Shown here: one piece after another, positions 44,315 through 63,166 of the stretch | Layout of the letters: each line of letters begins with the position of its first letter | Position numbering within the stretch: the first letter of the stretch is position 1 | DNA from: Wocania arenilitoris | GTDB lineage: Bacteria; Bacteroidota; Bacteroidia; Flavobacteriales; Flavobacteriaceae | DNA length: 64,000 nucleotides | Reading direction: 5' to 3' | Assembly (NCBI RefSeq): GCF_021728535.1 | Contig: NZ_JAKKDU010000010.1 | Coordinates: 1 to 64,000, forward strand | Position numbers and translations under genes: made by a program | Notes under the pieces: model-generated | The model's database searches: none | Told to the model about the DNA's origin: nothing | Seen by the model: only the letters and a program-made list of their open reading frames with translations

Positions 44315-44388
44315 AAAAAACACAGTAATAATATATAAATTTTGCTGAAAATGTATTAATTTTGCTTTTTATTTAAGAATAATTAATT

Positions 44389-44868
44389 ATGGGGAAAATT
44401 AAATTAGATGAAATTGATCATCAAATTCTTGATATGTTAATTGACAATACAAGAATTCCGTTTACAGACATTGCTAAAAAATTATTAATTTCTGCAGGTA
44501 CAGTTCATGTGCGTGTAAAAAAAATGGAAGAATCTGGTATAATTAGAGGTTCATCATTAACATTAGATTATAAAAAGTTAGGATATTCTTTTATTGCTTA
44601 TGTTGGCGTATTTTTAAATAACACCTCTAAAACAAAATTTGTACTAGAACGTATAAACAATATTCCGTTTGTAACGGTAGCTCATATAACCACTGGAAAA
44701 TTTAATATATTCTGTAAAATTAGAGCCAGAAGTACAGAACACGCTAAAGAAGTTATTTTTATGTTAGACGATATTGAAGGTGTTTACAGAACAGAAACCA
44801 TGATATCACTTGAAGAAAGCTTGAATGATAAAAAGCGTTTAATGCATTCTATTTTTAATGAATTATAG
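44389..44868 (+). CDS. Lrp/AsnC-family transcriptional regulator
   Basis: A 159-residue regulator. The N-terminal winged helix has LDEIDHQILDMLIDNTRIPF and IAKKLLISAGTVHVRVKKME; the C-terminal ligand-binding RAM domain shows YKKLGYSFIAYVGVFL and VTVAHITTGKFNIFCKI. Length fits the family. A -7 box TAATTTTG stands about 25 bases ahead of the ATG. The ligand is probably an amino acid. A strong terminator follows. Confidence 0.93.
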   Translation: MGKIKLDEIDHQILDMLIDNTRIPFTDIAKKLLISAGTVHVRVKKMEESGIIRGSSLTLDYKKLGYSFIAYVGVFLNNTSKTKFVLERINNIPFVTVAHITTGKFNIFCKIRARSTEHAKEVIFMLDDIEGVYRTETMISLEESLNDKKRLMHSIFNEL

Positions 44869-44939: not shown

Positions 44940-45782
44940 TTATTGTATTTCGCAACAGAAACAGTTATTAGGCTTATAAAAGCCCCTTTTATGTAGTGAT
45001 TGTATAATTCGTTCTTTAAACTTTAAACTGTAAACTTCAAATTTGGTGTAACCAAAATTACTGATACTAATTGAAGGTGCTAAAGCTTGTACATAATGCC
45101 ACCAGTTTTGTGGTACAAACAGCACATCTCCGGGTTCAAGTACAACACTTTTAAACTTATTGTTTTTAAATTCAGGGAATTTGGTATTGTTAAAATTATT
45201 AATGTCAACATCACTAGCAACAGCGCCATATATATGTTTTTTGCTGGGGTACATGGTTTTATTAAATTTTGTTGAGCTAATAATAAACATTTTTTTACCC
45301 CTTATTTGCGCATACACATTATTAGCTGTATCGGCATGAAAACCAGAAATGGTGTTTGCAGGACCAATCCAAGCTGTAATGTCGTTAACTTTAGTATGCT
45401 TCTCAAAAAACGAAAAGTCAATATCACTTTTCAGGTGTGGGTAATATTCAAAAATATCTAAAGTTGTTAGATAATCTTTTACTGATGTGTTATTGCTTTC
45501 AGCATCTTTTAATTGTTGAATATATTTTTTAAATGATGCTTTTTTATATCTGTTATCGTCTTGGATAAAGTTGTCTGATAATAAGAATATATTTTTATCT
45601 TCTTTAAGGTTTAATAAAAAATCTAAATCCCAATTTTTTGTTGCGCCCCAATCTTTTGCAAATCCTTTTATTATAACAGGTTTCTTTTTGTTAAAATAGT
45701 TTTTTTTAAAGGTAGCAGAATCAATAGACGTTATTTCTTCAACTGGTTGACTTTGTTTTACAATTTCTGATACAATATTCAT
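44940..45782 (-). CDS. JmjC/cupin-8-type Fe(II)/2OG dioxygenase
   Basis: A 280-residue oxygenase of the FIH/JmjC type. The metal-binding HxD is in GFHADTANNVYAQI and the distal His in FVPQNWWHYVQAL; GPANTISGFH and VLEPGDVLFVP are usual flanks. Such enzymes hydroxylate proteins or small molecules. The extreme C-terminus has an unusual NNCFCCEIQ cysteine cluster. It follows the ATP-grasp gene by 15 bases on the minus strand, so the two probably act together, perhaps modifying an amino acid or peptide for the adjoining polysaccharide locus. That link is inference. Confidence 0.85.
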   Translation of the reverse strand: MNIVSEIVKQSQPVEEITSIDSATFKKNYFNKKKPVIIKGFAKDWGATKNWDLDFLLNLKEDKNIFLLSDNFIQDDNRYKKASFKKYIQQLKDAESNNTSVKDYLTTLDIFEYYPHLKSDIDFSFFEKHTKVNDITAWIGPANTISGFHADTANNVYAQIRGKKMFIISSTKFNKTMYPSKKHIYGAVASDVDINNFNNTKFPEFKNNKFKSVVLEPGDVLFVPQNWWHYVQALAPSISISNFGYTKFEVYSLKFKERIIQSLHKRGFYKPNNCFCCEIQ

Positions 45783-45797
45783 GTTGTACTAAATTTG

Positions 45798-46949
45798 TTA
45801 TAAACTGTTTATTATGAAATGTTGGAAGTTTTTTTTTGGTCTAATTTTTCTCATAAAAAAACGGCTAAACCTATAAAATGTTGGCTTTAAGTCGTTAAGC
45901 ATATATTTCATGGGGGTGTGCTTGAAGATAAAGTTTAGCTTAAAAAGGTAGCTTTTATCATTTTTTATACTTTTTACCAAACCTTTCATAAGCATAAAGT
46001 CTATAAACTTATACTTAGGCATATCAAACTCATAACCCAAACTAGCGGCAGCATATAAATATGGAAAGTTAACACCAGCAAACAAAGAAGCTTCAACCGA
46101 TCCCCAAAACCTTGGGTTTACTTCAATTACCTTAAAGTTATTAGCGTTTTTATCGTAACGCATATCTAAATGTGCAACACCAGACCAATTAAGGGTTTTC
46201 ATTAACTTTTCTACATCTTTAAATAATACATCATTTTCTAAAAACTCAAATGATATTTGAGGTGCATATTTGCTATTACCGAACATATTCGGTTTCTGAA
46301 TCGTATATGCTAATATTTCACCGTTTTTGCAAAGTACGCTACAATCTATATCATAACCTTCTACATAATCTTGGATAAGGTATGTGCAATTAAATTTATC
46401 AGAGTTTAAAAACTCATTTAAACCACTTTTATCTCTAAAAACATCAATACCATTACCGCCCCCAATGCCTTCCGCTGGTTTTACCAAAACAGGAAAATCA
46501 ACGGTTTTAATATCAAAATCAACACCTTTATCTATCATTTGGGTTTTTGGAAATGGCAAATTATTTTCTGCTAAATGTTTGTTTAGAAGCCCTTTATTAT
46601 TTGCAGTATTAAAATTTTCATAAGAAGGTAATAAGGCAAGCTTATTAATGGAAGAAATTAAATCCTTATGTTCAAGTATAACCCTAATAGCATCTTCAAA
46701 AATGGGCATAATCACATCAATATTATACTTATCTACCTCTTTGTTTATATGGTTTATAAAGTCTGTATTGGTAGTTTTGGGATAAAAAGAAAATTTATGT
46801 ACTTTATTTGAGTGTTTCATGGGAATTTCGTTGTCATCAGACATCACATGAATTTTGATTCCCCTTACTTCAGACAAACAATTTAGCACAATCATTAAAA
46901 CTGGGGCTTCGCCATCTGGTATCAAAACAGATATATTCCTATCTATCAT
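45798..46949 (-). CDS. ATP-grasp ligase (carbamoyl-phosphate synthase-like)
   Basis: A 383-residue ATP-grasp enzyme. The N-terminal pre-ATP-grasp part (VLIPDGEAPVLMIVLNCLSE) precedes the nucleotide-binding region with FPVLVKPAEGIGGGNGIDVF near residue 160 and the metal-binding FKVIEVNPRFWGSVEASLF near residue 275. Family members ligate a carboxylate to an amine or thiol using ATP, often in cell-surface or natural-product pathways. It is upstream of, and likely in operon with, the JmjC-type gene and sits next to the polysaccharide region. Confidence 0.85.
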   Translation of the reverse strand: MIDRNISVLIPDGEAPVLMIVLNCLSEVRGIKIHVMSDDNEIPMKHSNKVHKFSFYPKTTNTDFINHINKEVDKYNIDVIMPIFEDAIRVILEHKDLISSINKLALLPSYENFNTANNKGLLNKHLAENNLPFPKTQMIDKGVDFDIKTVDFPVLVKPAEGIGGGNGIDVFRDKSGLNEFLNSDKFNCTYLIQDYVEGYDIDCSVLCKNGEILAYTIQKPNMFGNSKYAPQISFEFLENDVLFKDVEKLMKTLNWSGVAHLDMRYDKNANNFKVIEVNPRFWGSVEASLFAGVNFPYLYAAASLGYEFDMPKYKFIDFMLMKGLVKSIKNDKSYLFKLNFIFKHTPMKYMLNDLKPTFYRFSRFFMRKIRPKKNFQHFIINSL

Positions 46950-47205: not shown

Positions 47206-48660
47206 ATGGTATTTAATTCCTTAGAGTTTTTTCTTTTTTTATCGATAGTTTTTACGCTATACTGGTCGGTTTTTAAAAAAAACCTAAAGGCACAGAATTT
47301 ACTACTCCTTTTTGCGAGTTACTTATTTTACGGCTGGTGGGATTGGAGATTTCTTTCACTTATATTGCTTAGTACCACAGTAGATTATTTTGTTGGATTG
47401 AAAATATTTGCTAATGAAAAAAAATCGACACGAAAAATGTGGTTATGGGTAAGTGTACTTTTTAATGTTGGGCTTTTGGGCTTTTTTAAATATTTCAATT
47501 TTTTTGTTGACTCATGGGTAGATATGTTCTCAATGCTTGGATATGAGATGAAAAGCACTTGGACATTGCGAGTCATTTTACCAGTGGGTATATCATTTTA
47601 TACGTTTCAAACCATGTCTTATTCGTTTGATTTGTACTATAAAAAACTAGAACAGCCAACTAAAGATTTTTTATCCTTTGCAGCTTTTGTTAGCTTTTTT
47701 CCGCAATTAGTTGCTGGCCCTATTGAGCGTGCTTCAAACTTATTATCTCAAATTACAAATAAAAGGGAGTTTAGTTACAACCAATCTGTTAGTGGTTTAA
47801 AATTAATTTTGTGGGGACTTTTTAAAAAGGTAGTTATTGCAGATTCCTTAGGACCAATTGTAGATGATATTTTTGCAAACTATTCAACCTATCCTGCGTC
47901 AACACTTATTTTAGGGGTTACACTATTTAGTTTTCAGGTATACGGAGATTTTAGTGGTTATTCAGATATTGCTATTGGTACTGCAAAATTATTTGGTATA
48001 GAATTAATGTCTAATTTTAAATTCCCTAATTTTTCGAGAAATGTTGCTGAATACTGGCAGCGGTGGCACGTATCGCTATCTACATGGTTTAGGCATTACG
48101 TTTATATTCCGTTAGGCGGATCACGTGTTAGTAAACTTAAATCTGTTAGAAATATTATTATAATTTTCCTGGTTAGTGGCTTTTGGCACGGAGCCAATTG
48201 GACATTTGTTTTTTGGGGTGCATTTCATGCATTGGCATTTATTCCCGTTTTTTTAATGGGAAGAAATACTATTTATAAGAACAGTGTCGTAGGGGAGAAC
48301 ACTATTTTCCCTTCGTTAAAAGAAATAGGACAAGTTGTTTTAACCTTTGGAATAGTTACGTTTTCGAGAATATTTTTTAGATCAGAATCAATTACCGATG
48401 CCTTTGCTTTTATAAGGGGTATAACTAATAACTTTACTTATGAGGTTTACCATCATCCAATGGGTTATAGAATGATTGACTATTACATTCTTTTAGCATT
48501 ATTTGTTTTATATGAATATATCATAAGAAAAGATGAGCGATCACCTTTTAAATTTAAATCAAAAATGGTTAGATTTATCATATATACATTGGTAATTTTA
48601 TTGATGCTACTGTTTTACGATGATAACGTTGATAGGTCATTCATCTATTTTCAATTTTAA
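47206..48660 (+). CDS. MBOAT-family O-acyltransferase (AlgI/DltB-like)
   Basis: Polytopic membrane acyltransferase of 484 residues with about 11 helices. Diagnostic segments are FFPQLVAGPIERASNLLSQI, EYWQRWHVSLSTWFRHYVYI with PLGGSR, and SGFWHGANWTFVFWGAFHAL, whose histidine is the presumed catalytic residue. The length suits AlgI-type alginate O-acetylases; DltB belongs to the same superfamily. It transfers acyl groups across the inner membrane to surface polymers. A -7 box TAATTTTG lies about 65 bases upstream. The SGNH gene follows seven bases after its stop. Confidence 0.93.
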   Translation: MVFNSLEFFLFLSIVFTLYWSVFKKNLKAQNLLLLFASYLFYGWWDWRFLSLILLSTTVDYFVGLKIFANEKKSTRKMWLWVSVLFNVGLLGFFKYFNFFVDSWVDMFSMLGYEMKSTWTLRVILPVGISFYTFQTMSYSFDLYYKKLEQPTKDFLSFAAFVSFFPQLVAGPIERASNLLSQITNKREFSYNQSVSGLKLILWGLFKKVVIADSLGPIVDDIFANYSTYPASTLILGVTLFSFQVYGDFSGYSDIAIGTAKLFGIELMSNFKFPNFSRNVAEYWQRWHVSLSTWFRHYVYIPLGGSRVSKLKSVRNIIIIFLVSGFWHGANWTFVFWGAFHALAFIPVFLMGRNTIYKNSVVGENTIFPSLKEIGQVVLTFGIVTFSRIFFRSESITDAFAFIRGITNNFTYEVYHHPMGYRMIDYYILLALFVLYEYIIRKDERSPFKFKSKMVRFIIYTLVILLMLLFYDDNVDRSFIYFQF

Positions 48661-48667
48661 GCAAAAA

Positions 48668-49624
48668 ATGAAAAAACTGTTTTTTAAAACCATATTATAT
48701 ACCATTCTAATTTTGTTAGCGTTAGAGGTATTAATACGTGTTCTACATTTAACAAAAGATTATCCGTCGCGCTATATCGATGAGTTTGGTGTAGAGAAAT
48801 GGGTGCCAAATCAAAAAGGAATGTCAGTAACTGGTATTAGAAGACAAAATTTTTCAGAGTACAAAATCAACAACTCAGGGTATAATTCTTATCGCGAATT
48901 TGTTCCAACTTATGATAAAACAGAAATAGCCTTAGTTGGGGATTCTTTTATAGAAGGTTTTCATCAGCATTATTACAATGCCATTGGGAAAAAGATTGAA
49001 AGTAAACTAACGGATGTTGAAGTTTATGAGTTTGGTTACGCTGGCTATGATTTAGCAGACCAGTTACATTTAATACATGCTTATAAAAGTATGTTTAATA
49101 AAATAGATCATGTAATTTTAGGCTTAAAATTTGAAAACGATTTAACTCGTGGCGAGTATAATATAATTCAAGATAGAATACATTTAGAATCGCCATTATA
49201 CAAAAACATTCGTAAAATAAAACTGATAGTACATGCTCAAAATAGTGGCGTTTTCGATCCTATTTTAAATATTATTGGTTCAATCTCAACTTTTTTAAAG
49301 CCTAAAATAAAAACATATACTAAAGAGAAAACTAAGGAAGAAATTAAAAATATGCATTTGGCATATATTGAAAACTTTAAATCTTTAATAGAAAAATATG
49401 GATTTGATAAACAACGATTTGTGCTTCTTATAGACACAAGTATAACACCGCAAATATTTATAGAACATCTAGAAGAAAACAATTACAAGTATATTGATTT
49501 TTATGATGCATTAAACACATCAAAAACCCCAACAACTTTAATATATGATAGACATTGGAATAATCACGGAAGGCATTTAATTGCAAATTTAATTGTTAAA
49601 TATTATAGTAATATTATTAAGTAG
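48668..49624 (+). CDS. SGNH-type membrane-anchored protein, MBOAT partner
   Basis: I chose the ATG at 48668, which opens MKKLFFKTILYTILILLALE, an N-terminal membrane anchor; an upstream in-frame ATG would lie inside the MBOAT gene. The domain (319 residues in all) has the SGNH block I nucleophile in ALVGDSFIEGFHQ and block V in DRHWNNHGRHLI with the Asp-His pair. Such proteins (AlgJ/AlgX, DltD, PatB) cooperate with MBOAT proteins to place acyl groups on extracytoplasmic polymers. Its stop overlaps the convergent end of the FAD-FemAB gene by eight bases. Confidence 0.85.
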   Translation: MKKLFFKTILYTILILLALEVLIRVLHLTKDYPSRYIDEFGVEKWVPNQKGMSVTGIRRQNFSEYKINNSGYNSYREFVPTYDKTEIALVGDSFIEGFHQHYYNAIGKKIESKLTDVEVYEFGYAGYDLADQLHLIHAYKSMFNKIDHVILGLKFENDLTRGEYNIIQDRIHLESPLYKNIRKIKLIVHAQNSGVFDPILNIIGSISTFLKPKIKTYTKEKTKEEIKNMHLAYIENFKSLIEKYGFDKQRFVLLIDTSITPQIFIEHLEENNYKYIDFYDALNTSKTPTTLIYDRHWNNHGRHLIANLIVKYYSNIIK

Positions 49625-52600
49625 TTTTATTTCTATACAACGGAAAAAAATCTGAGTTGATATTTGCATCGCGCTCTGCAACTAATTTGTCGTAATTTTT
49701 TTTATCTACAACATACCGCCATATTTTAAAAGGCCTATAATCTTTTGAAAAAGAGGCCTTAAACCTAAACAGTTCATCTTCTTTATTACCTAATCCGCCA
49801 CCTAAGTTAAAATACTTATAGCTATTTGTACTATTTTTAATTCTTGCTTCGTCTATAAGCAATCGAAGAGGCGACAAATTTAAAGAGCTGTTTTTTGTAC
49901 CCGACAGGTGGTATTGAATAATATTATTGGTTTTTACCATCATAGCACCAGAAATAATAGCATTGGTTTCCTTATCAACTGCATAATACATAACCGTTTT
50001 AAAATCTTTACTATCCAAAAGTTTATAGAAATAGTCTCTAGAAAAATAATAATTTTTAGTAGCATCAACTCTATCCATATTCTCGTAATAGAGACTAATA
50101 AAGATATCTAAATCTTCTCTTTTATCACTAGTTATAATGTTTAAAAGTTTGCGTCCTTTGTTCAAATATCGCTTTGTAGTTTTAGAAAAAATAACACGTT
50201 GTTCATCTATAGGTTTTGTTAAATCAATATTTACAACATTGCCCAGTTTAATAGTTTCTCCTAAATTGGCTAGTATGGCATCTTGGTGTTTGATAAAAGG
50301 ATTTAATCTTGAAAAAACAGAAATAATCTTTTCCTGTGCAAAAAAAGAATTTAATGTTCTTTTAAAGTTTGAATTGTTAAATTTTGCATCGATGTTTTTT
50401 TGCAATGGTCCCGAGTAGCCATAAACCGAAGTTGCATCGTAAAAACTAGTACCTTCAATTTTTCTTATTATTAAAGGAAAGCAAATTAGTGCATCGCCTT
50501 CAGTATACCGCAACAGAACTGCTTTATAATCGTCTTTTTTTGCTAAGTAGTGATAATCGTAAGTATGGTAAAAATCATAGTTTCCTACTTGTTTTAAAGC
50601 TTTTTCCCAATGACCTTTGGATGTTATTACACTAAACGAAGAATCTTCACAAGTATTATTAACCTCATTTTGTCTGTAAACAGGAAAAAAAGCATCTGCG
50701 TTTTGTATTAAAGATGAAACGTCATCATATTCAACTACCATGTTGTTAATTAGCTTGTTATAAACATGGTGGTTTATAATTTTTCTTCCAGTACAAAATG
50801 GAATGTCTTCGGTTTTTGGAAAAAGATATTTTTTACTCTTGTATAGCCCATCTCCATCTTTTAACCCTCCTCCTAAAACATAATATTTAAAGTTTTGGCT
50901 TATAGCCCATTTTATAATTTCTACTCTTAAATAATCATTTGGTCTGCAATGAAAATAATCGGAATCTGTCCCTCCTAGAAATGCAAATATAGTGTCGTTG
51001 TTTTTTATTATTAATTCTGCAGAAATAGGAATATTATCTAAGTAGGCAAATGCTATTGAAAACTCATTTGGGTTGCTTAATATTAAGCTTTCAAAATAAT
51101 TTAATGAAAAAAAGTAAATGTCTTTTGCATTAAGTCTAATCATTGTTTTTGTATATATATCAAAGAAAAGCTTAATTGTTTTTTTGTTTATTTCATTACT
51201 ATTAAAAATAGTATTGTTTAAGTTATATGAAACTGCTTTGCGATAATTATTTCTTACTTTAGAAACAAAAGATATCCATTGTCTATCAAAATCTTTAAAA
51301 AGTTCTCCTTTAACATTTAATAACGATTTAACTAAGTGCCCTGTATACCCTAAATGGTTTTTATTTAAACTAAACCTAATAAATTCAGTTATTACATTGT
51401 TTTGTTTATACCAATTATCAACAGCACTCCAAAAAGCTTTTAAATCCTTTTCATTAATATCTCCATTATATAAAGGCCCGCCATAGCCATAAGGTGTTAT
51501 AACATCAAAATATTTAACTGATGAGTTGTTTTTTAAAGTTAATTCTCTAAAAATTAATGGCATCAAAATTTCACTAGAATTATTAATCTTAAACAGGAAA
51601 TACTTTAATGAGTTAGTTTTGTTTTCAAAATATTTTAAGTGGCAGTAAGCATAATAAATATTATTATTCCAGTTTGTTTTTAACAATTGGTTATAATTTT
51701 CAATATCTGTGGGATTATCTAAATTTATAACTTCTAGCTTATAGTTTTTTGATATGTTTTTTTTGTCTTCGAACAAATCGTCAAATAGTATTTTTGATAA
51801 TGTTTTAGACAACCAAATAATTCTTCCACAATGCTCAACATGCCATACTGCTTTGTTTTCAATAACATTGCCCGCTAGCATGGGGCCAATGATGTGGAAA
51901 TTTTTTGTAGATTCTAAATTCTCATTAACATGAAAGCCTATTTTTGATTGATTAGGGATACAGTATTTTTTTTCTAACAAATTTTTTAGCAATGCAGGTA
52001 TGTTATTATCCATTAAATTTCTACTTCCTACACAATTTATTACAATATGAAATGGGCTTTTATGTACTTTATTAGTTTTGGTTAATGTGTCTAAATACTC
52101 TAAGCTATAATTGTCATTGTCATTAGATGTCATGGTGTTAAATCGGCCAGCAATATGTTGAAACCTGTTTTGATTTTCTAGGCTTTTTACAACATTTAAA
52201 TAATGCATACCTGCGCAGCGTTGTCTTTTTCCTATTGTGTTACCATAGTCGCAAGCAAAAATTTCTAATTCTTTTTTACTTAAGTTTTCAAGTAAATCAC
52301 CAAAATGTTTAGAGATTATATCTACGGTTGAAGCTGCTCCTAAATTTATTTTATCGGCATTATCAAGATCTTTAAAAGTCGCTTCGGCAATTAATTTGGC
52401 AGTTAATTTTTTTTCTTTTTTTAATTCATTTAAATGGTAAGGTATATACAGTTTTTGTTTTTCTTTATCAATTAAGCCATCTGGTATCAAACCTTGAGTA
52501 GAAAGAAAAGTGAAATGAGTACTCGTGTGCTTATTATTAGAGAAATCATTTATTTTATATATTAATTCTAAAGCACTTGCATTGGCACCAACTATAAGAA

Positions 52601-53327
52601 TATTGGTTGGTTTCCCCTCTCTGTTGCTTATAAAAGTATTGACTTTGTTTAATGTTTTACCTATATTGGGTTTGTATGGGTTATTTATAAAAATTAGATT
52701 TTTTTCTTCTATTAAATCCTTATTCTGCCATAAATGTTTAACAGGTAACGAACCTACAGATAGAACTACTTTTAGAGAATTTATTTTTAATCCACCTTTT
52801 AGTGTAATGTTGTATGTGTTGCTATCTTTTTGTACATCTATAACTTCACCATTAGTATAGCTAATGTTTATTAATCCTTTTTCAGTAAGTTCTTCAACCT
52901 TATTATTTACTCTTAAATTAATGTAGCACCCAAAAAAACGTCTAGGGATAAATAGGTCTTCCCAATCGTTAGTATCAATTTTATCTTTATTGACTAAAAG
53001 CCATTTTTTTGATAATGTACCACCCTCTTTTTCAAACTCTTTTAGTAACCAAGATTTGTTTTTGTTAAGCCATTTGATAAATAAATTAAGTTCTGGTTCA
53101 ACCAAAAAGTTTCTCAAAGATGTTATTAAAAGTGTAGAATAGCCAGATCGTGTACCGTAAGGAATTCCTAAATTAAACTCTGAATATTTTTCAATAATAT
53201 GTATAGAAACAACTTCTTTAGATGTTGAATCATTATAGATTCGATCTAGAAAATTTAGTAAACTGAATGAGGTTGAAATTCCAGATCCAATAAAAGTAAT
53301 GTCTGCTATAGTATTATCTTTACTCAC
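49617..53327 (-). CDS. Tripartite fusion: FAD/NAD(P)-binding domain plus two FemAB-like acyl/aminoacyltransferase domains
   Basis: A cytoplasmic 1236-residue chain with no signal peptide. Residues 1 to about 530 form a PF13454-like FAD/NAD(P)-binding domain: ITFIGSGISTSFSLLNFL, LGIPYGTRSGYSTLLITS, a second Rossmann motif ILIVGANASALELI and VINCVGSRNLMDN. Two FemAB/GNAT-like domains follow (about 535-880 and 905-1220). They are tandem relatives: YGYGGPL near residue 612 and YGYSGPL near 967, RLNAKDIYFFSLNYFE and RVDATKNYYFSRDYFY, YYVLGGGLKDGDGLYKSKK near 815 and YFNLGGGLGNKEDELFRFK near 1170. FemAB proteins transfer amino acids from aminoacyl-tRNA to an acceptor amine. The gene is last in the adenylation/ACP operon. 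I infer flavin-dependent modification plus transfer of an acyl or aminoacyl group to a sugar. Confidence 0.8.
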   Translation of the reverse strand: MSKDNTIADITFIGSGISTSFSLLNFLDRIYNDSTSKEVVSIHIIEKYSEFNLGIPYGTRSGYSTLLITSLRNFLVEPELNLFIKWLNKNKSWLLKEFEKEGGTLSKKWLLVNKDKIDTNDWEDLFIPRRFFGCYINLRVNNKVEELTEKGLINISYTNGEVIDVQKDSNTYNITLKGGLKINSLKVVLSVGSLPVKHLWQNKDLIEEKNLIFINNPYKPNIGKTLNKVNTFISNREGKPTNILIVGANASALELIYKINDFSNNKHTSTHFTFLSTQGLIPDGLIDKEKQKLYIPYHLNELKKEKKLTAKLIAEATFKDLDNADKINLGAASTVDIISKHFGDLLENLSKKELEIFACDYGNTIGKRQRCAGMHYLNVVKSLENQNRFQHIAGRFNTMTSNDNDNYSLEYLDTLTKTNKVHKSPFHIVINCVGSRNLMDNNIPALLKNLLEKKYCIPNQSKIGFHVNENLESTKNFHIIGPMLAGNVIENKAVWHVEHCGRIIWLSKTLSKILFDDLFEDKKNISKNYKLEVINLDNPTDIENYNQLLKTNWNNNIYYAYCHLKYFENKTNSLKYFLFKINNSSEILMPLIFRELTLKNNSSVKYFDVITPYGYGGPLYNGDINEKDLKAFWSAVDNWYKQNNVITEFIRFSLNKNHLGYTGHLVKSLLNVKGELFKDFDRQWISFVSKVRNNYRKAVSYNLNNTIFNSNEINKKTIKLFFDIYTKTMIRLNAKDIYFFSLNYFESLILSNPNEFSIAFAYLDNIPISAELIIKNNDTIFAFLGGTDSDYFHCRPNDYLRVEIIKWAISQNFKYYVLGGGLKDGDGLYKSKKYLFPKTEDIPFCTGRKIINHHVYNKLINNMVVEYDDVSSLIQNADAFFPVYRQNEVNNTCEDSSFSVITSKGHWEKALKQVGNYDFYHTYDYHYLAKKDDYKAVLLRYTEGDALICFPLIIRKIEGTSFYDATSVYGYSGPLQKNIDAKFNNSNFKRTLNSFFAQEKIISVFSRLNPFIKHQDAILANLGETIKLGNVVNIDLTKPIDEQRVIFSKTTKRYLNKGRKLLNIITSDKREDLDIFISLYYENMDRVDATKNYYFSRDYFYKLLDSKDFKTVMYYAVDKETNAIISGAMMVKTNNIIQYHLSGTKNSSLNLSPLRLLIDEARIKNSTNSYKYFNLGGGLGNKEDELFRFKASFSKDYRPFKIWRYVVDKKNYDKLVAERDANINSDFFPLYRNKTT

Positions 53328-53329
53328 TT

Positions 53330-53965
53330 TTAATTATATTTTCTAGTTTTAATTATTTTGCCTGGGTTACCAACTACAGTTGAATAGTCTGGGACATCTT
53401 TAAGTACAACAGTACCTGCGCCAATAGTGCACCATTTACCAATTTTTACTTTAGGGATAACAACAGCACCAACACCAATATGACTGCCTTGACCTACTTC
53501 TACATGACCACACAGTGCTGCTTTTGGTGAGATATGAGCAAAATCATCGATAACATTATCATGATCTACACTAGCTCCAGTGTTAATAATAACATGTCTT
53601 CCTATGGTCGTATTAGGTTGAATAATTGCCCCTGCAAAAACTACAGTACCTTCACCAATAGTAGATTTATCTGAAATAATGGCTGATTTATGCACCGCTT
53701 TTTCATAACTACATTTTAAAAACTCTGCTATTTCAGCACGTTCTTTATTAATACCAACGGCAATGATAACGGGTGCTCCTTCGTGTGGAAATTTGCTTAG
53801 GTCTTCTCTTGCACCAATAGCTACATTTTTTGAAGCATGATGTACGCCTTCTGGTTTGTCATCAAAAGTATCTGTAACATGATATCCATTTTGCACTAAT
53901 ACATTTTTGATAACTTGTGAGTGACCACCTGCACCGTATATTCTAACTTTATTTTTTGTATCCAT
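53330..53965 (-). CDS. PglD/NeuD-type sugar O/N-acetyltransferase (copy 1)
   Basis: Acyl-CoA-dependent hexapeptide transferase of 211 residues. The N-terminal substrate-binding motif VRIYGAGGHSQVIKNVL is followed from about residue 95 by a left-handed beta helix of hexapeptide repeats (STIGEGTVVFAGAIIQPNTT, HVEVGQGSHIGVGAVVIPKV) and the closing DVPDYSTVVGNPGK. Members acetylate UDP-4-amino sugars (PglD) or sialic acids (NeuD). It lies two bases upstream of the fusion gene. With a PglC-like transferase nearby it fits bacillosamine-type sugar synthesis, but the aminotransferase and dehydratase are not in view. Confidence 0.87.
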   Translation of the reverse strand: MDTKNKVRIYGAGGHSQVIKNVLVQNGYHVTDTFDDKPEGVHHASKNVAIGAREDLSKFPHEGAPVIIAVGINKERAEIAEFLKCSYEKAVHKSAIISDKSTIGEGTVVFAGAIIQPNTTIGRHVIINTGASVDHDNVIDDFAHISPKAALCGHVEVGQGSHIGVGAVVIPKVKIGKWCTIGAGTVVLKDVPDYSTVVGNPGKIIKTRKYN

Positions 53966-53992: not shown

Positions 53993-54658
53993 TTAAGATA
54001 AGTACTTTTCATTTGGCTTTCTATTTTTAATTTCTCTAGCAGGAATACCATAAGCTAATTTGTAATCTCCAATATCTCTTATTACTAATGATGCTGCACC
54101 TACTATGGTGTGCTTACCAATTTTAATATTTTGGATAACTGAGGTTCCTAAAGAAATGGCTGAACAAAAACCTATAGTTATATTCCCTCCAGTAGTAACA
54201 CCAGGAGCTAAACTTGAAAAGTTATCCATATTCGAATCATGACCCAAAGAAGATTTGGTATTAATAATACAAAATTCGCCTACTTTAGCATCAGAGTTTA
54301 TTGTTACATTAGCCATAACAACAGTGCCTTTTGGTATAAAAACACCATTTGCTAAAACTGCACTGGGATGAATTGCACTAATAAATTCTAAATTTGGTGA
54401 TTTAGACTCAATAAGTTCTTTCATTTGTTTTCTAACCCAATTATCTCCTATGCTAATCAAAGCACCAAAAATATTATGTTTCTTTATTAATTTAGGAATA
54501 TCGTTCTCATTTCCAATTACCTTATAACCAAATATTTTTGAATCAATACTTTTAAATGAGTCTATTAAGCCAACAATGTTATATTCATTATTTTTTATAA
54601 TAATGTCAATAATCATTTTAGAGTGCCCTGAAGCTCCTATTATTAAAATGTTTTTCAT
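53993..54658 (-). CDS. PglD/NeuD-type sugar acetyltransferase (copy 2)
   Basis: A second hexapeptide transferase of 221 residues, clearly related to its neighbour but divergent: ILIIGASGHSKMIIDIII at the N-terminus, hexapeptide repeats from about residue 105 (VFIPKGTVVMANVTINSDAK, NITIGFCSAISLGTSVIQ) and the end DIGDYKLAYGIPAREI. Two such enzymes side by side imply two acylation sites or two acyl donors. One could use the carrier-protein-bound group made by the adenylation enzyme upstream; that is inference. Gap to the sugar transferase stop is 22 bases. Confidence 0.85.
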   Translation of the reverse strand: MKNILIIGASGHSKMIIDIIIKNNEYNIVGLIDSFKSIDSKIFGYKVIGNENDIPKLIKKHNIFGALISIGDNWVRKQMKELIESKSPNLEFISAIHPSAVLANGVFIPKGTVVMANVTINSDAKVGEFCIINTKSSLGHDSNMDNFSSLAPGVTTGGNITIGFCSAISLGTSVIQNIKIGKHTIVGAASLVIRDIGDYKLAYGIPAREIKNRKPNEKYLS

Positions 54659-54680: not shown

Positions 54681-55304
54681 TTAGCGTATCTCTCGATCTT
54701 TTCTTTCTACATTTAGTAGATTTTCTACATTTGTATTATCTATCGCTACATCTTTTGAAGCAATAACTTTATATATAGTTTTTGTTAGGATATTTAAATC
54801 CATTATAAAGGATAAATTATCTACGTAATCGGCATCAAATTTTAGCTTTGTATCCCAATTTATATTGTTTCTTCCGCTTACTTGTGCTAATCCTGTTATT
54901 CCAGGTTTTACAGTATGCCTTTTTCTTTCATTAGTCATGTAATATGGAAGGTATTGAGGAAGCAGAGGTCTAGGACCAATTAACGACATATCTCCTTTTA
55001 GAATGTTTAAAAGCTGTGGTAATTCATCAATAGAAGTTTTTCTCACAAGTTTTCCAATTTTAGTTAACCGGTAAGTATCTGGAAGTAATTTACCTTTTTC
55101 ATCAACTTTATCATTCATTGTTTTAAACTTTATAATGCTGAAGAGTTTTTCGTTTTTACCAGGTCTTATTTGAAAAAAGAATGGTTTGCCACTGTTAGCA
55201 AAATAAAGTAATATGGTAGTTATTATAAAAATTGGCGAAAAAATTATAATAGCTAATAATGCAGCGGTATAATCGATTAATGGCTTAAAAAACAGTTTGT
55301 ACAT
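54681..55304 (-). CDS. Initiating undecaprenyl-phosphate sugar-1-phosphate transferase (PglC-like)
   Basis: Monotopic phosphoglycosyl transferase of 207 residues that starts lipid-linked glycan assembly. The N-terminal re-entrant hydrophobic helix (about 8-35, IDYTAALLAIIIFSPIFII) precedes FFQIRPGKNEKLFSIIKFKT, the catalytic Asp-Glu pair in KTSIDELPQLLNILKGDMSL with IGPRPLLP, and VKPGITGLAQVSGRN. The short form matches PglC/EpsL enzymes rather than the long WcaJ type. The two acetyltransferases downstream support an acetamido sugar as first residue. Confidence 0.93.
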   Translation of the reverse strand: MYKLFFKPLIDYTAALLAIIIFSPIFIITTILLYFANSGKPFFFQIRPGKNEKLFSIIKFKTMNDKVDEKGKLLPDTYRLTKIGKLVRKTSIDELPQLLNILKGDMSLIGPRPLLPQYLPYYMTNERKRHTVKPGITGLAQVSGRNNINWDTKLKFDADYVDNLSFIMDLNILTKTIYKVIASKDVAIDNTNVENLLNVERKDREIR

Positions 55305-55319
55305 AGTATCAAATTTCTT

Positions 55320-55562
55320 TTAAGATATGTTGGATTTTATCGATTTTACTAAATCTCCAACATTGTCCATGGTCATTAAATCCATAAGTTTAAATTTTAT
55401 ATTGAATTCTTTTTCGATCTCTTCAATTATAACCATGTGAGATAATGAGCCCCAACCATCAACATCTTCTGTGGTAGTGGTTTCGGTTAACTCAAAGTTG
55501 TCATGTTCTAAAACTTTTACAAAAATTGGGTTTATTTTTTCAAATATTTCTTTGTTATCCAT
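55320..55562 (-). CDS. Stand-alone acyl carrier protein
   Basis: An acidic 80-residue helical protein with the carrier-protein fold. The phosphopantetheine site is VDGWGSLSHMVIIEEIEKEF with Ser39; the usual Asp of the DSL motif is replaced by Gly (GSL). It starts three bases after the adenylation enzyme stop and precedes the sugar transferase by 15 bases. It is not the fatty acid synthase ACP in context; the pairing with an adenylation enzyme matches DltC/DltA or polysaccharide-specific acylation systems. Confidence 0.9.
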   Translation of the reverse strand: MDNKEIFEKINPIFVKVLEHDNFELTETTTTEDVDGWGSLSHMVIIEEIEKEFNIKFKLMDLMTMDNVGDLVKSIKSNIS

Positions 55563-55565
55563 AGT

Positions 55566-57071
55566 TTAATTGTCAAAGAGGGTTCTTAATATTTTTCTGT
55601 CTATTTTACCATTTGTGTTATAAGGTAATTCTTTTGTAAATTTTATGTGGTCAGGAATCATATAATCGGGCATTTTCGCCTTCATATGTGCAACCATATG
55701 ATCTGTATTAAACACTTTGGATTCTATTACCAATGCTAATTCGGCATTGCCTAAATCATTAAATACATCTATGGCTACCATATTTACTTTTTCAGTGCAA
55801 CTGGCTTTGGCATGAAATTCTACTTCAGACAATTCAATTCTAAAACCTCTTATTTTTGCTTGAAAATCAATTCTTCCCAAATACATATAATTGTTATGAG
55901 TATCTTTAAAGCAGAGGTCTCCTGTTTTATAAAATCTTAAATTATCGCCGTTTACAGTTTTAGTAAAAAAGGATTCGTTATTTCTCTTTTTGTTTTTCCA
56001 ATACCCTGGAGTTAGTTGACCGCTGGCTAATGCTAATTCTCCTGTTTCGCCATCAGAAACTTCTTGATTTTTTTTATCAATTATAATATAAACAATATTA
56101 TTTAGTGGTTTACCTATTGATATAACACCATTATGCGTGGTATTTTGATTGCTATTTTTGTTTAATTTGTAATAGCTACTATATATAGTATTTTCGGTTG
56201 GTCCGTAATAATTAAATGTTTTACTGTTTGGTATGCATTTGTTCCACTCTTCTATAATATCATTGAATAAGGCACCGCCGCCAAAGCTACAATAACGGAC
56301 TTCTGGCGCATGTATTTCATTAAAATAAGGTCTTAAATAATGGATTATTGAGGGGACTAGAGACAGCACCGTTAGTTTGTATTTTTGAATTAGCTTGTAG
56401 ATATAAAAATATTTTATTGAATTTCGAGGGACGGTGTAAATACAACTACCTTCTATCAATGGAAAAATATAGGACACTACCGAAAAATCGAATGTAAGCT
56501 CGAACATTTGCAAACACCTGTCGGATGCATTGAGTTTAAACTCGCCATCAAAGTTTATGGCTTTTATAAATTCGTTTAAATTATTGTAAGTTATAGGTAC
56601 TCCTTTAGGGCTGCCTGTAGATCCAGAAGTAAATAGTATATATGCTAAATCGTTTTTTGCTATTGGTTTTGGTTTTAGGTTTATAGCAAAGGTTTTTTCT
56701 TTTACTGGCGTTAAAACTGTAAATCCATCAAAGTTAGCGGTATTGGTTGAATCGAATAGATAGCTTGTTTCTAATGACTTTAGAATCTCTATATTTCTAT
56801 CAATAGGATGCTCAGGGTTTATAGGTACATAGGCTTTTCCTTCTAACCAAAAAGCAACAATAGCGGCGTAAGTTTGTATATCGTCGTTAGCTATTAAGCC
56901 AATTAATTTTGAAGAAGTTTCAATACTTTTATCAATCGTAGCTCTTATTTTACTTATTTCTTGAGCAAAATCTGCATATGTATAATAGATGTTATTTATA
57001 TAAAACGCATTATTCTCATAATGAGTTTCAATAGATTTTTGTAAATTATTTATATACTTCATGATGTGCAA
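55566..57071 (-). CDS. Stand-alone adenylation enzyme (DltA/NRPS A-domain-like)
   Basis: AMP-forming ligase of 501 residues that should activate an amino or carboxylic acid and load it on the neighbouring carrier protein. Core motifs are present: A3 YILFTSGSTGSPKGVPITYN, A5 NYYGPTENTIYS, A7 FYKTGDLC, A8 GRIDFQAKIRGFRIELSEVE and A10 lysine in NTNGKIDRKIL. Like DltA, it has no condensation, carrier or thioesterase domain. The specificity pocket includes MFELTFDFSVVS (A4 region), which I cannot decode without a structural comparison. Three bases separate it from the ACP. Its start MHIMKY has two possible ATGs. Confidence 0.92.
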   Translation of the reverse strand: MHIMKYINNLQKSIETHYENNAFYINNIYYTYADFAQEISKIRATIDKSIETSSKLIGLIANDDIQTYAAIVAFWLEGKAYVPINPEHPIDRNIEILKSLETSYLFDSTNTANFDGFTVLTPVKEKTFAINLKPKPIAKNDLAYILFTSGSTGSPKGVPITYNNLNEFIKAINFDGEFKLNASDRCLQMFELTFDFSVVSYIFPLIEGSCIYTVPRNSIKYFYIYKLIQKYKLTVLSLVPSIIHYLRPYFNEIHAPEVRYCSFGGGALFNDIIEEWNKCIPNSKTFNYYGPTENTIYSSYYKLNKNSNQNTTHNGVISIGKPLNNIVYIIIDKKNQEVSDGETGELALASGQLTPGYWKNKKRNNESFFTKTVNGDNLRFYKTGDLCFKDTHNNYMYLGRIDFQAKIRGFRIELSEVEFHAKASCTEKVNMVAIDVFNDLGNAELALVIESKVFNTDHMVAHMKAKMPDYMIPDHIKFTKELPYNTNGKIDRKILRTLFDN

Positions 57072-57077
57072 AAAGGC

Positions 57078-58172
57078 TTAATAAAAATGGCCGTCTCTGT
57101 TTAACATAGTTACACTATCGTAATCAAACTTGGTGTCGTTATGCACTAGTCCTTTTTTTAATACTTTATGTATAAATAGTGTAAAGTATCTTTTTTTAAT
57201 GTTGTCGGATAATTTTGTATCATCTGTAAACATAAAATTTCGTTTAGATTTGATAAGGTTTTCCATTAGTGCATCAACGCATAAATTGTAATTATCTTCA
57301 TCTTTAACTAAAAAATATTTTACATTAAACTCATTATAATTAACAACATAAGATAAGAAGCCTATAATTTTATCTTCTGAAATAATTTTTAAGTTATGTA
57401 TATGAATATTATCACTAATGCCTGTTTGTAAATTTTTATAAGGTGTTTTTGAGATGGGTAGTTGCAGGTATTGATTATTATCGAGTTGCCAATTAACGTA
57501 ATTGTAAGTTTTTAAAATTAAATCATTCTTGCAAAGTGGTTCAATAAAATTCCAAGTATCAGTATCTAATTGGTTTATAAAATCGTATTTTAATGTTTTA
57601 GTTTTATTACCTAATTTTTTATTGTTAATAAATCGGATGGATTTGCTGATAATGGCATCAACACCATCAATAATAAATTTTACCGACTTTAGGAATCTGA
57701 ATTTCCCAATCAACATTGACGAATCTAAACTAAAAAATAAGGTATGTCTTAATCTTGAGGCTATTACAGTAAAAGGTTGCTTGTCATAAAATTCTTGTAC
57801 GTTTTCTGTGTAGCCTTTAATAAGCACTTGTTTTTCAGCAAATTTTACAGCTTGGTTATAAATGTAAGTTCCAAGAATAGTGTCTTTGTATTTACCAATT
57901 ACCCACCAATCAATCATCCAATAGGCTTTTTTGCCTGTTGCGGTTTTGTTGTTTATTAAATCAGGAAACATGAATATAAAAGACACCATTTTTTTGCCTT
58001 CGTAAGCTAAAACGCCACAGTAATCATTCTCATCAATTCTTTCATTAGAAATTAGCCAAATAGCTTTGCTCCTTGGCATAGGAGCTAAATCAGTTTTCCA
58101 AAGCGTATTGTTTTTAACAAAATCACGAAGCATATCTTTGGTTAAGCCAACAATTTCTAGTTCTTCACTCAT
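57078..58172 (-). CDS. GNAT-like acyltransferase, polysaccharide locus
   Basis: A 364-residue cytoplasmic protein. The N-terminal half has a GNAT-like pattern (CGVLAYEGKKMVSFIFMFPD, WMIDWWVIGKYKDTILGTYI) with DWWV as the presumed acceptor-side strand. The C-terminal half (about 200-364) looks like a second degenerate GNAT lobe. It starts the transcription unit that contains the adenylation enzyme, ACP and sugar transferase, six bases upstream of the adenylation gene. I infer transfer of an acyl group to a nucleotide sugar; no substrate can be named. Confidence 0.72.
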   Translation of the reverse strand: MSEELEIVGLTKDMLRDFVKNNTLWKTDLAPMPRSKAIWLISNERIDENDYCGVLAYEGKKMVSFIFMFPDLINNKTATGKKAYWMIDWWVIGKYKDTILGTYIYNQAVKFAEKQVLIKGYTENVQEFYDKQPFTVIASRLRHTLFFSLDSSMLIGKFRFLKSVKFIIDGVDAIISKSIRFINNKKLGNKTKTLKYDFINQLDTDTWNFIEPLCKNDLILKTYNYVNWQLDNNQYLQLPISKTPYKNLQTGISDNIHIHNLKIISEDKIIGFLSYVVNYNEFNVKYFLVKDEDNYNLCVDALMENLIKSKRNFMFTDDTKLSDNIKKRYFTLFIHKVLKKGLVHNDTKFDYDSVTMLNRDGHFY

Positions 58173-58407: not shown

Positions 58408-59712
58408 TTACGTGTTTTTAATAAAGTTATTAATGGTTGCTTTCTGTTTGCCAGAAGATAACCGCGGAATTTCGTTTACATATTCTATTTTAATATTGGC
58501 ATCATTACCTAAAAAGCCTTTAAATTGCTTTAGTAATTTGGCTTTTTCATTAAACTCATCAGTACTGTTTAGCTTTAAAACATATTCTTTTTGTTGCTCT
58601 TGAATTAATTGCCCTTGCTTTATACCTTTATATTCTACAACATTTGTTATTATAAACGACGATATAATTTCACCTTTTGTATTGTATATAACATCAGATT
58701 TTCTACCCTCTACGTGCTTTAAAACAGGAGGGGTAACTGTGTAATCTATAATGCCTAAATCTCCAGTATCGTATCTAATAACTGGTATGGCATAATTATA
58801 CAAATCTGTAACTACAATTCTTCCTAATTCATGTTTTTCAGCAGGCTTATCTTCATCAATTTTGAATATTTCAACATAATAGCTTGCCCAATTAACGATG
58901 TAATGGTTACAATTTATTTGTTGCTGAGCAACAATGCCTGTTTCCATAGTAGAATATCTTGATACTGCTGGTACACCAAAATATTTCTGCATGGTTTTTT
59001 TTGTGTAACTATTTAAGTTTTCAGACATAGCAATAATAGATTTAACGTTGCTATGAAATGGTTTAGATTGTGTCTTGTCTAAATATTTACAAATTAGCTC
59101 ATAGCCAGATGGATAGCCAATCCATCCTTTTGTAGAAGAGTCTTTAGTAATATTTTCTATTACACTATCTATATACGCATCATTTAGTTTTGTGACTTCT
59201 AATTCATCAACATTTTGCATAAACTTAACAAAAGGAGGTCTACTTAGGTTATCATCCCAATGCCGTAGATATAATAATTTATATCCTATTTTAAAACCTG
59301 CTAGTTTTCCAAAATAAATGGAATCTGCGGTATTCCTATTTACTTTATTTTGATTTTGATATAATTTAAGAGCTACACTAGTTGAACCACTTGTAGAAAC
59401 TGCTTTGTTTTTTTTAGCTTTAAATATTTCAGATTGAAAATTAGTTAATTGGTCTCTAATTAAATTTTTATTAATTACCGGAAAGGTTTCAAAGCCATTA
59501 TACTTATTATAAAAATTAGTAGTTTGTTTTGCGTGCTCAATTAAGCTTACTAAGCTTTTTTTCCTTTTTTCAATAGATTTAGCTGATGAGAAATTTTCTA
59601 GAATAAAGCTAATATCTTTAGTATGTTTTTTAATTTCTTGCCCTTTAAGCAAATCAATAAACCAATAACTAGCATACCTTAAATTTTCAAACAAAACTAA
59701 AATGGGTCTCAT
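58408..59712 (-). CDS. PaaK/CapK-like adenylate-forming enzyme
   Basis: A 434-residue member of the phenylacetate-CoA ligase-like family often found in capsule clusters. Nucleotide-binding motif KAVSTSGSTSVALKLY lies near residue 105; YSTMETGIVAQQ is the A5-like motif and IRYDTGDLGIID the A7-like motif near residue 305; RLSSGKQKATI ends the protein with the A10 lysine. In capsule loci such enzymes are thought to activate a carboxylate of unknown nature. Its ATG lies one base from the ATP-grasp stop, so both are coupled. Confidence 0.85.
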   Translation of the reverse strand: MRPILVLFENLRYASYWFIDLLKGQEIKKHTKDISFILENFSSAKSIEKRKKSLVSLIEHAKQTTNFYNKYNGFETFPVINKNLIRDQLTNFQSEIFKAKKNKAVSTSGSTSVALKLYQNQNKVNRNTADSIYFGKLAGFKIGYKLLYLRHWDDNLSRPPFVKFMQNVDELEVTKLNDAYIDSVIENITKDSSTKGWIGYPSGYELICKYLDKTQSKPFHSNVKSIIAMSENLNSYTKKTMQKYFGVPAVSRYSTMETGIVAQQQINCNHYIVNWASYYVEIFKIDEDKPAEKHELGRIVVTDLYNYAIPVIRYDTGDLGIIDYTVTPPVLKHVEGRKSDVIYNTKGEIISSFIITNVVEYKGIKQGQLIQEQQKEYVLKLNSTDEFNEKAKLLKQFKGFLGNDANIKIEYVNEIPRLSSGKQKATINNFIKNT

Positions 59713-59713
59713 A

Positions 59714-60757
59714 TTATTCTTTAATTTCTTTTAATATATCTTGAATTATTGGGTGTTTGCAATACCCACCATAAGCAACGTCTGTAAGGTGTAACGATGG
59801 ACCCTGGTTGCCTTCTATTATTAATGGGCCTCTAGGTGTTATAGCAATGTCCCAACCAATAAGACGACTAGGTAGTAATTTAGAAGCTGTTTTAGCAAGT
59901 TTACAAGCTTCTGTAACATATGGTATTTTATATCCATCGAGTTTGGTATTCGAATCTGGGTGGGCAAAAAACACTTTACCTCCTTTAGATAAATCTTGTC
60001 TGCAAGGACCTTTTAGTTTGTTAGTGTTTAGGTCTAAAGCAATTGAAAAACCACCAGCACTTGCATTATCAACAAAACTATTTCCTGCACCAAAACGCAT
60101 TAAAGCCGAAAGCACATGTATATTTTTTTGTTTGTCTATAAATGTATCAATGCGTATAGTGTTGATAGAGTTATTGTAAATTTTGCTAATATCGCTATGC
60201 TGTATTACTACTTTTTGATGGATGTAGCAATTATTTAGTAAATCGTCTTTATGCAAACTTATTTGTTCGTTTAGTCTGTTTTTTTCTAAAAGTATACAAC
60301 CTTTACCACCCAAAGAATTAAAGAGTTTTAAAAATAATTTTGATTTATCAATTTGTTTAAATACATCTTTAAAAAAAGCAATGAGGTCATTTGAGCTCTT
60401 TATAGTTTTAAAACTACCATTGAAAAAAAAACTATTAGTTAAATTATAGCTTATTAGTTTTGGTGTAGGCAGTTTGTTTTTTTCTGCAAAAAGCGCAAAG
60501 CTTAACTTATTGTTTAAAATGGAACCTGCTTCTGGAACAATTATTTTAGGCGAATTAATAATGCTATAATACTCTTTTAGCGTTAAATAGTTAGTGTAGT
60601 CAGAAACATCATTTCTGTATAAAAATTTTCTAAAATAATCAGAAGGAATATCTTTTTTAACCCAAGAGAAGTGTATTATCTCCTTGATGATTTTTAGCCA
60701 GCCTTTTTTGTTTTTATCTTTAATAAATACATTTAAGTGTCGTAATCTTGACAGCAT
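59714..60757 (-). CDS. Sugar-transfer-associated ATP-grasp protein
   Basis: A 347-residue member of the ATPgrasp_ST family, found with glycosyltransferases in polysaccharide loci. Visible are LFLKLFNSLGGKGCILLEKN (nucleotide-binding loop, about residue 140), NTIRIDTFIDKQKNIHVLSA, and GWDIAITPRGPLIIEGNQGP with the metal-binding Glu and Asn near residue 315. The family probably forms an amide between an amino acid and a sugar carboxylate or amine. It stands between the GT4 gene (six bases) and the PaaK-like gene (one base) in a tight operon. Confidence 0.88.
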   Translation of the reverse strand: MLSRLRHLNVFIKDKNKKGWLKIIKEIIHFSWVKKDIPSDYFRKFLYRNDVSDYTNYLTLKEYYSIINSPKIIVPEAGSILNNKLSFALFAEKNKLPTPKLISYNLTNSFFFNGSFKTIKSSNDLIAFFKDVFKQIDKSKLFLKLFNSLGGKGCILLEKNRLNEQISLHKDDLLNNCYIHQKVVIQHSDISKIYNNSINTIRIDTFIDKQKNIHVLSALMRFGAGNSFVDNASAGGFSIALDLNTNKLKGPCRQDLSKGGKVFFAHPDSNTKLDGYKIPYVTEACKLAKTASKLLPSRLIGWDIAITPRGPLIIEGNQGPSLHLTDVAYGGYCKHPIIQDILKEIKE

Positions 60758-63158: not shown

Positions 63159-63166
63159 TTATAGCT

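Follow-up and report, generated by a model that had tools for sequence, protein, structure and literature searches.

Several described systems share parts with the protein analyzed here, which is encoded on the minus strand at 49617..53327 of the first 64,000 nucleotides of contig NZ_JAKKDU010000010.1 of Wocania arenilitoris (assembly GCF_021728535.1; this whole stretch is called the window below) and joins a PF13454-type flavoprotein part to two Fem-type domains. In valanimycin biosynthesis, according to the available parts of PMC11705231 and PMC12945691, the flavin N-hydroxylase VlmH/VlmR yields a hydroxylamine, which the Fem-like enzyme VlmA esterifies with serine from seryl-transfer RNA (Ser-tRNA); these are, however, separate small-molecule enzymes, VlmH works in a two-component monooxygenase, and the acceptor is isobutylamine. 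Beside VlmA, which acts on a hydroxylamine, the available part of PMC12945691 describes the Fem-like Orf11, which acts on streptothrisamine, an amino-sugar intermediate. In the BD-12 pathway (PMC10156733, available part) Orf11 brings an amino acid from tRNA to the amino-sugar antibiotic and the flavin adenine dinucleotide (FAD) enzyme Orf1 follows, but Orf1 is ThiO/glycine oxidase-like and installs a formimidoyl group, and the product is an antibiotic rather than a surface glycan. Sbb17 and Sba18 (PDB 9wqw and 9wqy) are, by the titles of these entries, to be grouped with Orf11 as Fem-like transferases acting on amino-sugar antibiotics. The Vlm and Orf11 systems may serve as precedents for the logic of the protein, not as proof.

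The aspartate N-hydroxylase FzmM/CreE (PDB 8cp2) is a PF13454-type protein with FAD and NADPH (reduced nicotinamide adenine dinucleotide phosphate) domains; the available part of PMC10404684 places a helical domain between its two nucleotide-binding domains and describes an arginine cluster, Arg13 included, that binds aspartate. FzmM shares the domains and the helical insert with our flavoprotein part, but with 12% identity in the superposition; our protein lacks the Arg13 motif, and FzmM lacks Fem domains and has another gene context. SidA, PvdA, DfoA and DesB, which are among the best structural matches, are paired with a GNAT acyltransferase in siderophore pathways (PMC11424930, available part); their acceptors are ornithine, lysine or diamines, whereas our flavoprotein lacks their ATGY motif and has no match to PF13434, the SidA/PvdA-type family, among the Pfam hits to E 0.1. 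FemX and FemA have the same double GNAT fold and catalytic lysine but belong to peptidoglycan, whereas the Fem domains here are tandem copies attached to a flavoprotein in a polysaccharide locus. Fem or GNAT proteins are also tied to exopolysaccharide systems as TIGR03019 FemAB in XrtA/PEP-CTERM loci and as the Caulobacter holdfast GNAT HfsK (PMC5362036, available part). The match of TIGR03019 to our protein is below the cut-off of that model. We know of no flavoprotein partner of TIGR03019 FemAB or HfsK and of no established donor. The parts of the protein described here are of known kinds; their combination is unusual but recurrent, and the protein is not categorically new.

The gene is a single uninterrupted frame of 1236 codons with a GTG start and no internal stops, and it begins two bases past the stop codon of NeuD2, the NeuD gene that precedes it. 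Its product consists of a flavoprotein part (residues 1-522) and two Fem-type double-GNAT domains (526-892 and 893-1236, FemA1 and FemA2). Pfam finds PF13454 NAD_binding_9 at residues 12-193 (40.0 bits, cut-off 21.8) and, in the first Fem copy, Acetyltransf_6 at 740-822 (44.2 bits, cut-off 22) and FemAB_like at 680-788 (27.3 bits, cut-off 27); the second copy has no Pfam match. It is seen by the NCBIfam FemX model in two stretches, the best at 1035-1216 (E 2.1e-11; 43.7 bits, far below the cut-off of 500), and is 25% identical to the first copy. The three-part architecture on one chain, proposed in a preliminary description made from the sequence alone, is confirmed by Pfam, NCBIfam, the alignment of the copies and structure prediction; the spacing from YGYxGP to LGGGL, given there as about 203 residues in both copies, is indeed nearly equal, the exact values being 205 (613 to 818) and 206 (969 to 1175). 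Wocania ichthyoenteri (L033/L075, 1236 residues) and Flavivirga aquatica (L035/L083, 1231 residues) carry the same three-part single frame, so the fusion is no assembly artefact. No description of a flavoprotein-Fem-Fem architecture was found in the open-access literature, judged by titles and abstract openings, nor was a characterized homolog of identical architecture found there or among PDB sequences; the preliminary description knew of none either. A 1648-residue frame in another genome (G006), considered as a four-part fusion, was rejected, as it consists of three separate open reading frames (ORFs; 888, 381 and 349 residues).

The distribution of the parts was analyzed in the best 80 of 95 related loci from a contig scan, the window's own locus not being counted. 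Each was viewed over about 10 kb on either side, so that counts of genes in view are lower bounds, and ORFs were called mechanically. The flavoprotein stands alone in 37 loci and is fused to NeuD in 19, to FemA1 in 17 and to FemA2 in three; two loci have all three parts of the window protein, and two have NeuD, the flavoprotein and FemA1 in one chain. NeuD is fused or directly upstream on the same strand in 64/80 loci (23 nearest to NeuD2, 20 nearest to a second NeuD subfamily, 21 fused), and Fem is fused or directly downstream in 60/80 (36 separate FemA1 genes, 24 fused). PglC is in view in 69/80 loci, and PglE and PglF together in 35/80. Two NeuD subfamilies, in Aquimarina about 80% and about 33% identical to that of the window, replace each other directly before the flavoprotein gene (L075-L154). 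On a quick tree of 81 flavoprotein parts, which has 21 open forks and on which the meeting of the long branches L134 and L136 calls for caution, Fem fusion changes state at least four times and NeuD fusion at least six times; for single labels, the starred branches alone force one to four changes, and gain is indistinguishable from loss. These changes and the varied architectures show that the module was fused or split more than once. Hence the fusion represents a single arrangement of a module of three enzymes (NeuD/PglD, flavoprotein, Fem) that occurs, variously shuffled, in polysaccharide loci of Flavobacteriaceae; it is not the system itself, as the preliminary description had it, the parts often being separate neighboring genes.

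By record title, 77 of the 80 loci are from Flavobacteriaceae (33 of the 80 from Aquimarina), two from unplaced Bacteroidia bins (L088, L141) and one from a metagenome bin titled Algicola (L124; Pseudoalteromonadaceae in NCBI). The flavoprotein of the latter falls within the starred Allomuricauda/Flagellimonas group, and its title may be wrong. In a scan of 397 Flavobacteriaceae genomes, with up to two candidates scored in each and absence of parts not counted, 110 matched some part of the fusion at E <= 1e-30 and 27, the window's own included, matched the flavoprotein part. At 1e-15, just two of 395 genomes of the phylum matched the flavoprotein part: that of the window and one more from the same family. 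A partial search for a mobile origin gave no plasmid match of the flavoprotein part at 1e-10 and no PHROG match of the whole protein.

FemA1 is not in view in 20/80 loci. The genomes of 18 of these (all but L122 and L141) were searched, and 12/18 contain a relative of Fem at 1e-20. The distance between the Fem and flavoprotein genes is about 14 kb in Croceivirga radicis (L060) and, if contig numbers correspond, about 27 kb in Maribacter thermophilus (L138). In the remaining Fem-less loci the flavoprotein keeps NeuD and PglC (L085, L111, L119, L123, L127) or PglE and PglF (L153), which points to an amino sugar as the common denominator of the flavoprotein loci, without proving it. A formyltransferase-like gene lies near the NeuD-flavoprotein fusion in L111 and L119 (7401-8165 in L119).

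Both C-terminal domains are firmly assigned to the Fem family. It had been said beforehand that structure prediction should give a GNAT fold here, and both copies superpose on FemX/FemA with Z 24-25, each with two GNAT domains as in FemABX proteins; Sbb17 superposes on the second copy with Z 23.2. The Fem profile A2, built from 41 of 49 Fem copies, finds FemX at E 1.9e-15. The place of FemX Lys305, the catalytic residue according to the available part of PMC12945691, is occupied by lysine in 41/41 rows of A2; in a wider Fem set the spacing pattern of this lysine is kept in 84/88, and three of the four misses retain a lysine there by eye. The preliminary description had the oxidized group then acylated; this step is more likely the transfer of an amino acid from tRNA.

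The AlphaFold model of the flavoprotein part (mean predicted local distance difference test, pLDDT, 90.1; predicted template modeling score, pTM, 0.87) has the overall fold of SidA/PvdA-type N-hydroxylating monooxygenases (NMOs). In the best 50 of 1597 Foldseek matches, rows 1-49 are NMOs (SidA, PvdA, DfoA, DesB, FzmM) and row 50 is a dihydrolipoyl dehydrogenase. In VIA-align, FzmM 8cp2 gave the longest superposition among the matches listed (454 residues, Z 22.2, root-mean-square deviation 4.9). At the sequence level, the link to FzmM runs via PF13454. The flavoprotein is a member of this family both by its score above the curated cut-off and by long-range homology, as the profile of 27 flavoprotein rows (A1) aligns with seven other PF13454 proteins (A4) over 430 columns with probability 99.6 (hhalign). 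In turn, the PF13454 protein L158 finds FzmM at E 5.2e-7, its sole PDB match up to E 10. The motif RxxxGxY occurs in 26/27 rows of A1, in 7/7 rows of A4 and in the aligned stretch of FzmM. The sequence alignment with 8cp2 reaches its residue 270, the Arg/Asn cluster 409-416 and Arg577 lying further on. The nucleotide-binding motifs are intact, the second being kept in 27/27 rows of A1. The rows of A1 were found by BLAST and are thus not circular, their genomes overlapping largely with the 80 loci, whereas the 81/81 counts of the motifs WH[VL]EHCGR and NAS[AG]..E among the flavoprotein parts are partly circular, as the loci were seeded with these patterns.

Our tentative proposal, which we hold as possible rather than probable, is that a class-B flavin N-hydroxylase passes its product directly to Fem transferases that depend on aminoacyl-tRNA, and that these modify a capsule amino sugar of the bacillosamine type. 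The fusion would thus tether the enzymes that successively modify an amino sugar in the repeat unit of a capsule or exopolysaccharide. Its N-terminal part would bind FAD and NADPH and act as a class-B N-hydroxylating monooxygenase, turning an amine into a hydroxylamine; the two Fem domains would then load amino acids from aminoacyl-tRNAs onto the sugar unit, on the nitrogen or, in a VlmA-like manner, on the hydroxylamine oxygen. The likeliest amine would be the 4-amino group of a sugar of the bacillosamine type, which enzymes of the PglF/PglE/PglD/PglC type encoded in the locus would produce; alternatively, an amino acid attached to this sugar beforehand would offer its free amino group. Oxidation or N-hydroxylation had been guessed in the preliminary description; the Foldseek result, the superposition on FzmM and the PF13454 kinship favor the latter, and the chemistry is what we infer from them. 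That joined flavin N-hydroxylase and tRNA-dependent transferases give a bacillosamine-type capsule sugar of marine Flavobacteriaceae N-O groups (N-hydroxy amide, hydroxamate, O-aminoacyl hydroxylamine) or N-N groups is, in our opinion, rather doubtful.

Several observations weigh against the N-hydroxylase-transferase proposal. Acetylation of the same amine by NeuD would compete with both steps. The model (pTM 0.56) does not fix how the two Fem domains are placed relative to each other. On the tree, the fusion states cluster compared with shuffles, and several branches are weak. Fem is not obligatory, as six of the 18 searched genomes (L085, L111, L119, L123, L127 and L153), some of them metagenome bins that may be incomplete, have a flavoprotein and no Fem relative at E <= 1e-20. 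The motif [LF]ATGY of SidA/PvdA-type NMOs is present in 0/81 flavoprotein parts and 0/27 rows of A1, and the FzmM motif GPRG with Arg13 likewise in 0/27 and 0/81. The flavoprotein family profile finds in the PDB, at best, a short stretch of glutathione reductase (E 0.027). VIA-align lists YpdA and thioredoxin reductases first (Z 22.7 to 22.1, about 300-314 residues), and these tie with FzmM in Z, so that the fold alone would allow a reductase or dehydrogenase.

The last points lend themselves to another explanation, in which the flavoprotein is a flavin dehydrogenase, a reductase or a C-oxidizing enzyme acting on the nucleotide sugar or its acyl group, and Fem aminoacylates the same unit. The level scores of thioredoxin-reductase-like chains, the nearly as high ones of chains like flavin-containing monooxygenases (FMOs), the weak sequence matches to reductases and the missing ATGY motif all agree with it, as do the invariant His and Cys of WHxEHCxR, for which no counterpart in NMOs is known to us. 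We consider it somewhat unlikely, given that NMOs come first in Foldseek, that the FzmM match spans 454 residues and that PF13454 connects the two families. Furthermore, CxxC, the redox pair of thioredoxin reductase-type disulfide reductases, occurs in 0/81 parts and 0/27 rows of A1, though by Z their fold is as good a match as FzmM, and FxGxxxHxxx(W/Y/F), the fingerprint of Baeyer-Villiger monooxygenases and FMOs, in 0/81. An N-hydroxylase could also yield an amino acid product, for example nitrosuccinate from aspartate, with the N-oxygenated acid or its nitrite being used afterwards. FzmM, the closest structural relative by coverage, does so (PMC10404684, available part). This is very unlikely for our protein: the GPRG motif is absent, a sugar acetyltransferase is the fused or directly upstream partner in 64/80 loci, and no CreD/FzmL-type lyase is among the scanned window genes, the rest of the genome not having been searched for one. 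Membership in the nitrosuccinate synthases/L-aspartate N-hydroxylases (FzmM/CreE) was rejected for lack of Arg13, and the missing Arg13 and ATGY motifs make a substrate other than aspartate likely. Judging by the model, the flavoprotein is thus likely N-hydroxylase-like, with a different substrate.

Alternatively, NeuD and the flavoprotein could form a hydroxamate pair, N-hydroxylation being followed by N-acetylation of the sugar amine, with Fem acting on another amine within the same repeat unit. The fusion of a NeuD2 relative to the flavoprotein in 21/80 loci and the persistence of the NeuD-flavoprotein pair in the Fem-less L085, L111, L119, L123 and L127 speak for such a pair, and in Schizosaccharomyces pombe ornithine N-oxygenase and its transacetylase interact physically (PMC11424930, available part). 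On the other hand, flavoprotein-Fem fusions (24/80) are as frequent as NeuD fusions and the acceptor of NeuD2 is only putative, and we regard this possibility with some doubt. A further question concerns the donor, as the neighboring adenylation enzyme and acyl carrier protein (ACP), instead of tRNA, could supply the amino acid to Fem. Of the 80 loci, 51 have an adenylation gene in view, 47/51 of them together with FemA1, and 29 have none. We find this donor unlikely: 13/60 FemA1 loci and 13/26 FemA2 loci show no adenylation gene, the Lys305 place is conserved in Fem, and the adenylation gene follows another gene, GNATx, which is present in 47/51 loci with an adenylation gene and in 0/29 without. 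All these locus counts are weakened by the share of Aquimarina. In L128, L137, L138 and L142, which have no GNATx beside the adenylation gene, the adenylation match is weak (29 to 33% identity). GNATx is likely the transferase of the pair formed with the adenylation enzyme. The co-occurrence with adenylation enzyme and ACP suggested in the preliminary description thus turned out to be loose for the flavoprotein. By eye, FDFSVV in the adenylation pocket keeps the Asp that binds an alpha-amino group.

The locus context supports the surface-glycan setting proposed earlier. The fusion gene is the last of an operon-like minus-strand run that starts at contig base 64387 and ends at 49617, with 1 to 235 bases between its genes, and the tail of the fusion gene overlaps the SGNH/GDSL-like gene by 8 bases (Table 1). 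Further on, the contig carries genes like PglE (69-70% identical to the copy in L094), PglF (59%) and Wza (44%); in L094, Pfam identifies PglE and PglF as DegT and Polysacc_synt_2; flippase-like and Wzc-like proteins are suggested there by our reading of the sequences.

Table 1. Positions of the fusion gene's parts and motifs and of neighboring genes in the window.
Feature	Position	Strand	Remarks
Flavoprotein part, residues 1-522	51762..53327	-	PF13454; class-B-monooxygenase-like model
GSGIS, first dinucleotide (FAD) motif	53274..53288	-	At the place of the aspartate N-hydroxylase GPRG (Arg13); Arg absent
GANASALE, second dinucleotide (NADPH) motif	52566..52589	-	27/27 in alignment A1
QRCAGMHY, family signature close to the end of the helical insert	52200..52223	-	27/27 in A1
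WHVEHCGR, family signature ahead of the C-terminal helix	51822..51845	-	27/27 in A1
FemA1, residues 526-892	50652..51752	-	Lys832 at the place of FemX Lys305
FemA2, residues 893-1236	49620..50651	-	Lys1190 at the place of FemX Lys305
NeuD2, PglD-type acetyltransferase	53330..53965	-	TIGR03570, 212.6 bits; relative fused to flavoprotein in 21/80 loci
NeuD1, second PglD-type acetyltransferase	53993..54658	-	TIGR03570, 185.6 bits
PglC-type initiating sugar-phosphate transferase	54681..55304	-	PF02397, 200 bits
Acyl/peptidyl carrier protein	55320..55562	-	PF00550, 26.8 bits, cut-off 20.8
Stand-alone amino acid adenylation enzyme	55566..57071	-	PF00501, 186.6 bits; TIGR01733 and DltA below cut-offs; PDB LgrA, GrsA
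GNATx, 364 residues, partner of adenylation enzyme	57078..58172	-	No Pfam family over cut-off
CapK/PaaK-like AMP-forming ligase	58408..59712	-	NCBIfam, below cut-off
Sugar-transfer-associated ATP-grasp	59714..60757	-	PF14397
GT4 glycosyltransferase	60764..61921	-	PF00534
F3, Acetyltransf_6 GNAT	62028..63158	-	First of six F3-like genes; row reaches contig base 68746
F4, Acetyltransf_6 GNAT	63167..64000	-	Runs on past the window to contig base 64387
MBOAT O-acyltransferase, convergent	47206..48660	+	PF03062; relative in view in 53/80 loci
SGNH/GDSL-like partner of MBOAT	48620..49624	+	PF00657, 20.6 bits, below cut-off; in view in 48/80 loci
Cupin_8/JmjC-like oxygenase	44940..45782	-	10/80 loci; accessory
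ATP-grasp ligase	45798..46949	-	4/80 loci; accessory

Other features of the region were also observed. Six F3-like GNAT genes follow one another at contig positions 62028-68746 (window 62028-64000 and L184), the other four of the row being found by BLAST and only the first two being checked in Pfam; six such genes near a flavoprotein-Fem gene are also present in some relatives, L042 (same contig as L114) and L100. Three MBOAT genes lie in one polysaccharide region (window 47206-49624; contig 68747-71143 and 73676-76026), each beside a gene for a protein of 298-334 residues, and within the region the Cupin_8/JmjC-like oxygenase gene adjoins the ATP-grasp ligase gene (44940-46949). An M14 peptidase and an Lrp regulator are encoded at the cluster edge (43160-44868); Lrp is up to 99% identical in other genera and the cluster between varies, as if the pair marked the conserved boundary of a polysaccharide locus with variable content.

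If the flavoprotein does act as an N-hydroxylase, N-oxygenation would be placed in capsule biosynthesis, and the fusion would offer a single-chain hydroxylase-transferase for studying substrate hand-over. The analysis provides a testable function for a PF13454 subfamily that is here almost restricted to Flavobacteriaceae (77/80 loci) and for a large group of Fem-like genes of polysaccharide loci. Should the sugar indeed carry N-O or N-N groups, chemistry of siderophores or valanimycin would have moved to a surface polysaccharide, perhaps giving these bacteria a metal-binding coat.

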